From Pseudomonas sp. p1(2021b) (lineage in GTDB: Bacteria > Pseudomonadota > Gammaproteobacteria > Pseudomonadales > Pseudomonadaceae), in assembly GCF_020151015.1 (NCBI RefSeq), contig NZ_CP083746.1, forward strand, positions 4,680,501-4,744,500: a DNA stretch of 64,000 nucleotides. Reading direction: 5' to 3'. Positions within the stretch are counted from its first letter, which is position 1, and each line of letters begins with the position of its first letter. The notes under the pieces were generated by a model. That model saw nothing but the letters and a program-made list of their open reading frames with translations, was not told where the DNA came from and searched no databases. Positions 61,611-62,780 of this stretch are shown here, one piece after another. The translations under genes were made by a program, and so were the position numbers.

Positions 61611-61613
61611 ATT

Positions 61614-62576
61614 CTATGGTTGTGGGCAAGCATTTTTAGCTGTTCTGGTGACGTATTCGCCCTGACTCTTCAATAGGGCGAATGCGACTCTGGCGAGCTT
61701 CCTGGCCAAGATCACCAGGGCCTCGGTAGTAGCCTTACCTTTGCTCCTGTGGTGTGCATACACCTCTTTCCAGGCCACTGATCGACTAGCCGACATTGCC
61801 GCATTGTGCAGAAGGCGTCGTATCTCAGAGCAGCCCCGCTTGGTGAGCCGCCGACGGCCGGTTTTTTGCCCGGAGTCAGAGATTTGCAAGTCCATGCCCA
61901 AGAAAGCGATGAATGAATCACCATTCTTGAAGTCCCCCCGGATAAACGCTGTCACCAACCCCACAGCGGTCAAAAATCCGATGCCTTCTATCTTTTGGCA
62001 GCGGGCGACCTGCTCGCTTAATCCGGCTTCGCGCACCAACTCCTTGAGCTTTTTCTGAAGCAGTACATCGAGTTTCTCCATGTTCTTGGCAAAGGATTTG
62101 AACACGGTCTCAAGGCTTCTTTCATTGGACCAGCTTTGCATCAAGGCGGTGCGTGCCGAGACCAGCGAGGCGCGGCGACGCAGAAGGCTCTGGAGCTTGC
62201 CGTAGACGGCTGGAGGTGGGCTCCAGGGACGTAGTCCACTGCCTTCGCGGGAAAGATAGCGAGAGAGTAGATAAGCGTCAGAGGCGTCCGTCTTCACCCG
62301 ACCACCGACGCTCTTTCGATAGTTACTGAGCTGGAAGCCATCGACCACGTAGACTGCAAAGCCTTTTTCATAAGCCATCTCCACCAGGTCGAGATGGTAG
62401 GTATTCGTTGCTTCGACGCAGATAGCGGTATTGGCGGGTTGTTGTCCCAGCCATTTTTTGATTTCGGGTTTGGTATTTTTCAGCGAGGACTGTTCATCAC
62501 GGTCTTCGAAATGGACAACCAATTCGACTTTGGCCACATCCACACCAATGATGAATTGGCTTACCTGCATTGCCAT
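61614..62576 (-). CDS. IS110-family transposase (DEDD type)
   Basis: 320 residues from MAMQVSQFIIGVDVAKVELV; the ATG at 62576 has GGGAG eight bases upstream. The N-terminal RuvC-like DEDD domain shows Asp in IGVDVAK, Glu in AICVEATNTYHL and two Asp in KTDASDAYLL. The C-terminal Transposase_20 domain shows IEGIGFLTAVGLVTAFIRGD and TGRRRLTKRGCSEIRRLLHN with the serine-bearing AAMSAS. Full-length and without frameshift, so potentially active. Confidence 0.95.
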   Translation of the reverse strand: MAMQVSQFIIGVDVAKVELVVHFEDRDEQSSLKNTKPEIKKWLGQQPANTAICVEATNTYHLDLVEMAYEKGFAVYVVDGFQLSNYRKSVGGRVKTDASDAYLLSRYLSREGSGLRPWSPPPAVYGKLQSLLRRRASLVSARTALMQSWSNERSLETVFKSFAKNMEKLDVLLQKKLKELVREAGLSEQVARCQKIEGIGFLTAVGLVTAFIRGDFKNGDSFIAFLGMDLQISDSGQKTGRRRLTKRGCSEIRRLLHNAAMSASRSVAWKEVYAHHRSKGKATTEALVILARKLARVAFALLKSQGEYVTRTAKNACPQP

Positions 62577-62780
62577 TGGCCACACTCCCACGTATGGTTT
62601 TTCTGCTTGGAGGGGTTTTCACCAAGAGGCGCTGGCTTGCTTCTATCGTCGCTTGCAAACGATGCATTCTTTATCGGCGCTTTGGTGAAGGGGTGGGGCG
62701 ATGTCTCCCACGGTCTGTACTGCGGCTAACAGTCAGAATCGGCTTTTTCGTCCCACCACCCCTTCAAGTATCACCATACA
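62577..62780 (-). ncRNA. Candidate bridge RNA region of the IS110 element
   Basis: The noncoding 5' end of the element, upstream of the transposase. IS110 elements such as IS621 express a bridge RNA from this place. GTGGGAG (complement of 62705-62711) can pair with the target CTCCCAC next to the CT core. It sits inside a possible stem, CGAT-TCT with AGA-CATCG. A second hairpin, ATCGT/ACGAT, follows and could be the donor loop. Limits and folding are inferred by eye only. Confidence 0.4.

Follow-up and report, generated by a model that had tools for sequence, protein, structure and literature searches.

The noncoding left end of an IS110-group insertion sequence from Pseudomonas sp. p1(2021b) is very likely to encode a bridge RNA, with AAAGCCG as the left target guide, GTGGGAG as the right target guide, and putative donor pairing by the segments AGAAU and AUA..CAAG. 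The insertion site of the element is thus very probably selected by a guide RNA made from this end. The element lies in a stretch of DNA of 64,000 nucleotides, which is referred to as the window; the coordinates of the relevant features are collected in Table 1. The ends of the element, its insertion sites, a conserved and covarying fold, and the covariation between guides and sites are established by sequence comparison.

Table 1. Features of the insertion sequence and of its predicted bridge RNA (window coordinates).
Feature	Coordinates	Strand	Basis or remark
IS110-group insertion sequence, 1170 bp	61611..62780	minus	ends from the four own copies and relatives
CT core outside both element ends	62782-62781 and 61610-61609	minus	
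IS110-family transposase gene (tnp)	61614..62576	minus	Pfam PF01548 and PF02371, NCBIfam NF033542, PDB matches ISCro4 and IS621
Predicted body of the bridge RNA (about 163 nt), 5' arm to 3' arm of the closing stem	62606..62768	minus	fold z and conserved architecture; RNA ends predicted
Closing stem P1, 5' arm CTTGAAGGGG	62759..62768	minus	
Closing stem P1, 3' arm CCCCTCCAAG	62606..62615	minus	arm swap 0/10,000 with extra-genus sequences
Target-loop stem P2, 5' arm GGTGGG	62752..62757	minus	arm swap 0/5000
Target-loop stem P2, 3' arm CCCACC	62692..62697	minus	arm swap 0/5000
Apical stem of target loop, 5' arm TCTGACTG, 3' arm CAGTACAGA	62730..62737 (5' arm), 62722-62714 (3' arm)	minus	arm swap 160/5000
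Donor-loop stem P4	62677..62687 (5' arm), 62632-62620 (3' arm)	minus	arm swap 0/5000
Left target guide AAAGCCG	62740..62746 (core-facing AU at 62739-62738)	minus	guide-site covariation; own copies 5, 5, 5 and 6 of 7
Right target guide GTGGGAG	62705..62711	minus	position in left end and guide-site covariation
Probable left donor guide AGAAU, identical in letters to right end AGAAT	62666..62670	minus	putative function
Probable split right donor guide AUA..CAAG, can pair with left-end CTTGTAT around a bulge	62636..62646	minus	putative function, by analogy with IS621
Possible junction promoter, -35 TTGCCC and partner -10 TATGGT	61624..61629 (-35), 62778-62773 (-10)	minus	17 nt apart once ends are joined; 4/6 and 4/6
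Promoter-like antisense pair TTGCCA-17-TATGGT across the leader and the start codons of tnp	62570..62598	plus	0.6 such sites expected by chance in the region

On the basis of its sequence, the element is a member of the IS110 group. The long noncoding region is located upstream of tnp in the IS110 group and downstream of it in IS1111, in which subterminal inverted repeats are usually 11-13 bp long (PMC11187229). In the present element, 204 nt of noncoding DNA precede tnp and 3 nt follow it; the full left end (62577-62780) starts at 62780, directly after the CT core, and the ATG of tnp begins at 62576. Long subterminal inverted repeats are absent, which is a trait of the IS110 group, and only a 6-bp ACCATA/TATGGT pair is found near the ends. 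The two halves of this short inverted pair lie at 61618-61613 (ACCATA, right end) and 62778-62773 (TATGGT, left end), and its variable base covaries in relatives: of 22 distinct end pairs, 15 have G-C, 4 have T-A and 3 have an unpaired C/C. The stop codon TAG of tnp falls inside the conserved right end CATAGAAT (61611-61616), which leaves the noncoding right end of 3 nt. The transposase matched the Pfam models and NCBIfam NF033542, the model of IS110 RNA-guided transposases, above their cut-offs, and the PDB search with this protein returned two distinct solved sequences, ISCro4 and IS621. The protein thereby shows the make-up of the group, a DEDD transposase that has a Transposase_20 domain at its C-terminus and a serine. 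Residues D13, E55, D97, D100 and S235 are invariant across 13 aligned transposase proteins, and we take them to be catalytic, relying on the alignment with ISCro4. The mention of S241 of IS621 in PMC11208158 was also taken into account in this assignment.

The genome of origin contains four copies of the element; each lies within a REP, and neither the position in the REP nor the orientation differs among them. Their left flanks read ..AAG(C/G)CCG-CT and their right flanks CT-CC(C/T)ACA; including the CT core, the right flank is CTCCCAC in three copies and CTCCTAC in the fourth. Across the genome, 740 sites fit the pattern AANSCCGCTCCYACA, compared with 1 site for the reversed control pattern, and 26 REP-like CGCTCCYAC sites are present in the 64-kb window, against 1.8 expected. 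The own insertions fall in the two commonest REP types of an 81-site sample, which consisted of the window, the own-copy loci and the first 30 of the 740 pattern matches, and no preference among the REPs of this genome was evident in it.

Relatives of the element were collected within and outside the genus. In the genus search, 55 of 398 genomes, the own genome counted, gave a match at E 1e-40 or better; 60 further stretches were fetched, and 92 copies from 41 Pseudomonas genomes were analysed, the own genome being included in both numbers. A covariance model built from 42 distinct left ends, that of the window among them, found matches in 5 of 293 genomes sampled from the order, namely the own genome and four outside the genus. 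A peptide-pattern scan of named genomes, derived from the protein alignment and represented by the best 80 of 229 relatives, placed them in Pseudomonas, Alcanivorax and its family, Halomonas and Natronospira. The standard anchor parsed 73 of these 80, and from the remaining seven a Halomonas locus (L144) and a Natronospira locus (L196) were added by a looser anchor. The scan with a peptide pattern from a single transposase protein returned 27 stretches, none of them a relative; the search of plasmid records gave no match, and Rfam at gathering scores gave 0 matches in the 64-kb window. At one locus (L014, on G066 contig 45), the element is present twice, both copies being oriented alike and their genes lying 1352 bp apart.

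The predicted RNA of the window consists of a closing stem (P1), a target loop formed by P2 and the apical stem, and a donor loop formed by P4. Folding of positions 62610-62770 gave a z value of -3.77 against shuffled sequences, and 1 of 200 shuffles was as good. RNAalifold applied to an automatic alignment indicated double changes in 3 of 30 pairs; the stem types were misaligned there, and RNAalifold was therefore replaced by arm-swap tests on parsed arms. In these permutations, which leave the kinship among sequences in place, no swap among 5000 equalled the observed pairing of P2 or P4 in the 42 left ends, and the corresponding counts were 160/5000 for the apical stem and 672/5000 for P1. 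The genus-only set thus leaves P1 unsupported, and both P1 and the apical stem are weaker in it than P2 and P4. When left ends from outside the genus were added (3 of 75 left ends unparsed), P1 formed 9.06 of 10 pairs compared with 8.35 after swapping, with 0/10,000 swaps as good over 16 distinct arm pairs, and its two middle positions paired in only 21 of 32 cases. The initial annotation had proposed a bridge RNA in this noncoding end, and the comparison supports it well: the covariance model and the folding of homologous left ends revealed a conserved fold, the relatives share one two-loop architecture, as in bridge RNAs of the IS621 type, the stems covary, and both target guides covary with their sites.

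According to the rule described for IS621, the left guide repeats the top-strand letters that precede the core, and the right guide is the complement of those that follow it (PMC11208160). The left and right target guides of the present element likewise match the bottom and top strand around the core. The right target guide was confirmed by sequence comparison as GTGGGAG, the word that had been proposed earlier for its complementarity to CTCCCAC, CT included, right of the insertion point. The word is indeed present at this place on the minus strand, where any given 7-mer would be expected about 0.012 times in 204 nt, and the complementarity is true at three of the four own copies. Among 138 family copies, GTGGGAG stands at the right-guide position in 126, facing CTCCCAC in 120 of them, CTCCTAC in 5 and TTCCCAC in 1. 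The variant GTAGGAG faces CTCCTAC in all 7 of its copies, and in 5 copies GTGAGAG stands opposite CTCCCAC, with a single mismatch. The Fisher value for this association is small but takes no account of relatedness: GTAGGAG is carried by one Pseudomonas genome and by the Alcanivorax family. At five more loci from outside the genus (four of genome G577, and L144 of Halomonas), GTGGGAG faces CTCCTAC, a combination that G-U pairing would permit, and locus L131 has ACGTGAG at CTCACAT, matching in 6 of 7 positions after the best 7-mer of the segment was picked, which favours the match. A second GTGGGAG (62591-62585) was rejected as a guide; it is the ribosome-binding site and is missing there in the relatives compared.

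The left target guide, as identified by its covariation with the insertion site, is AAAGCCG. Across the 92 copies, 549 of 644 bases at this position are identical to those of the own site in register 0, compared with 279 in register +1, 172 in -1, 165 in +2 and 108 in -2. All seven letters match in 39 copies, six in 33, five in 10, four in 3, three in 2 and two in 5. Averaged by genome over the 41 Pseudomonas genomes, the match is 5.857 of 7, compared with 4.778 for shuffled genomes, and 0 of 10,000 shuffles were as good; shuffling within stem types gave a mean of 4.96 and again 0/10,000. The same register holds outside the genus, where 83 of 105 bases are identical at 15 loci (none of the shifts tried gave more than 38) and where 13 distinct pairs match in 5.62 of 7 letters compared with 3.34 (0/10,000 shuffles), the anchor having been loosened for a few of these loci and some of them having been eyed before scoring. 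The window's own left guide is imperfect at all four own copies (Table 1). The misfits include G091 (3/7), G186 (2/7) and L189 (1/7, with an N in its site), as well as the guide ..AAAGCTCGTCA (G382, G128, P. laurylsulfativorans), which matches in 1-2 of 7 letters and would need a 2-nt register shift; these rows were kept in the by-genome permutation. The mismatches of the left guide show no wobble bias (21 vs 19), rows with the guide ..GCTCGTCA being omitted from this count only. At locus L021 of G186, CTCCCACATTTGGTAGCT stands on both flanks and the left site is 2/7 to the guide, as if a rearrangement had replaced the left flank. In G577, the L137 copy with guide AGGCAAG lies at AGGCAAG, and the L129, L133 and L135 copies with guide AAGCAAG lie at GGGCAAG, which perhaps reflects retargeting inside one genome.

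The regular occupation of REPs could also be explained by a transposase that reads the REP alone, the left end acting only as a folded leader that keeps translation low, a role suggested for ISPpu9. The REP sites are alike in all relatives, and the ISPpu9 leader is described as limiting tnp translation (PMC8450116), which is in line with this explanation; however, the variable letters of the left end track the variable letters of the site in one fixed register, both in and outside the genus, and the explanation is therefore considered very unlikely. The leader role and the bridge RNA role may coexist. It is extremely improbable that the agreement of guide and site is a by-product, without function, of a host history common to element lineages and REP variants. 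The copies and genomes are related, and the permutation counts therefore overstate their independence, but a common history, which may associate letters, gives no reason for their letter-by-letter identity; the shuffles within stem types were equally clear, and the same outcome is seen at loci from other families.

Returning to the bridge RNA, the donor guides are most likely AGAAU and AUA..CAAG, the first of which, on the left, has no counterpart in the initial annotation. At the left-donor-guide position, AGAAT is found in 28 and GGAAT in 14 of the 42 left ends. CAAG (62639-62636) is present in 42/42, with ATAG directly upstream in 41/42, and the right donor guide of IS621 is described as discontinuous (PMC11208158). 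The ends of the element hardly vary among relatives, and the putative donor-guide segments are conserved, with no covariation to score. The ATCGT/ACGAT hairpin containing GCAAG, to which a donor-guide role had been ascribed, does exist (62663-62645), but the role is not supported: GCAAG occurs there in 5 of 42 left ends, the window included, and thus recurs in only 4 of the 41 others. A bridge RNA with the guides as originally placed, i.e., with TTAGCCGC or CAAGCCAGC as the left target guide and this GCAAG as the donor guide, is hardly credible. The named words are all present in the window, but it is AAAGCCG that follows the site letters; of the 42 left ends, 6 contain TTAGCCGC, and the five besides that of the window are at ..GCTCGCT sites, which differ from the window's; and CAAGC is invariant and CAAGCC present in 41/42 left ends although the sites differ.

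Transcription, a circular intermediate, the use of the donor guides and catalysis are inferred as follows. After excision, the ends of the element would probably join and a promoter would form across the junction, driving an RNA of about 160-170 nt. In its first internal loop, the left guide AAAGCCG and the right guide GTGGGAG would jointly select and orient the REP around the CT core, and the second loop would pair with the joined ends, AGAAU with the right end and AUA..CAAG with CTTGTAT. The DEDD/serine transposase would then exchange strands at CT. A promoter across the junction of right and left ends is plausible from the sequence: the joined ends contain TTGCCC-17-TATGGT, with a score of 8/12 that is equalled by a second pair of hexamers found there, and 33 of 44 junctions have TT as the first two letters of the -35.

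An antisense promoter over the tnp start codons is weakly supported. The pattern ATGRCAAT, present at 61 of 62 distinct tnp starts, itself fixes the antisense -35 as TTGCCA or TTGTCA, and therefore only the -10 is informative; it scores a mean of 3.1/6 at 17 nt, and the best spacing is 17 in 34, 15 in 22 and 18 in 5. For ISPpu9, the antisense RNA Asr9 is reported as proven, with the -35 of its promoter in the first tnp codons and the -10 at the ribosome-binding site (PMC8450116), and the case for the antisense promoter gains weight only from this similarly placed promoter with a proven product. It may be speculated that this branch makes an anti-bridge RNA from that promoter, opposite the whole bridge RNA, which would limit or time not only translation but also the recognition of target and donor, with Asr9 as one case; the proposal is tentative and rather doubtful. 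No literature linking Asr9 with bridge RNA was found in a search whose coverage did not extend to bioRxiv and most subscription journals.

That ISPpu9 and ISPpu10 insert into REPs was already known in 2006 (PMC1525189), and a bridge RNA of the REP-targeting ISPpu10, an IS110-family element of P. putida, was predicted in 2024 (PMC11208160). REP-targeting IS110 bridge RNAs are therefore an already known kind, of which the present element is a further example with guide positions mapped more exactly. As described, ISPpu10 resembles it in the REP target and the predicted bridge RNA (PMC11208160, PMC1525189). ISPpu9 of P. putida is likewise an IS110 element in REPs with a structured leader and a similarly placed antisense promoter, but its published description includes an AG repeat, a 5'-UTR of 244 nt and an Ssr9 RNA located downstream, compared with the 204-nt left end and 3 nt after the stop found here (PMC8450116). 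With IS621 and ISCro4, the element shares the transposase family, the location of the predicted RNA in the left end, the CT core, the order of left guide, apical stem and right guide followed by the donor loop, and probably the discontinuous right donor guide (PMC11208160, PMC11208158). Unlike IS621, which is described with a separate 5' stem-loop (PMC11208158), the element has P1 joining the 5' and 3' ends of the predicted RNA; the right guide comprises 7 nt in comparison with 4 nt in IS621, and longer ones are reported in orthologues (PMC11208160).

In natural copies from Pseudomonas, Alcanivorax, Halomonas and Natronospira, the guide letters change with the REP variant at the insertion site, which is direct comparative evidence that this IS110 branch retargets through the change of a few guide letters. 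The guide map of the element is corrected and natural guide/site pairs are supplied, and the antisense control of bridge RNAs becomes a testable question.
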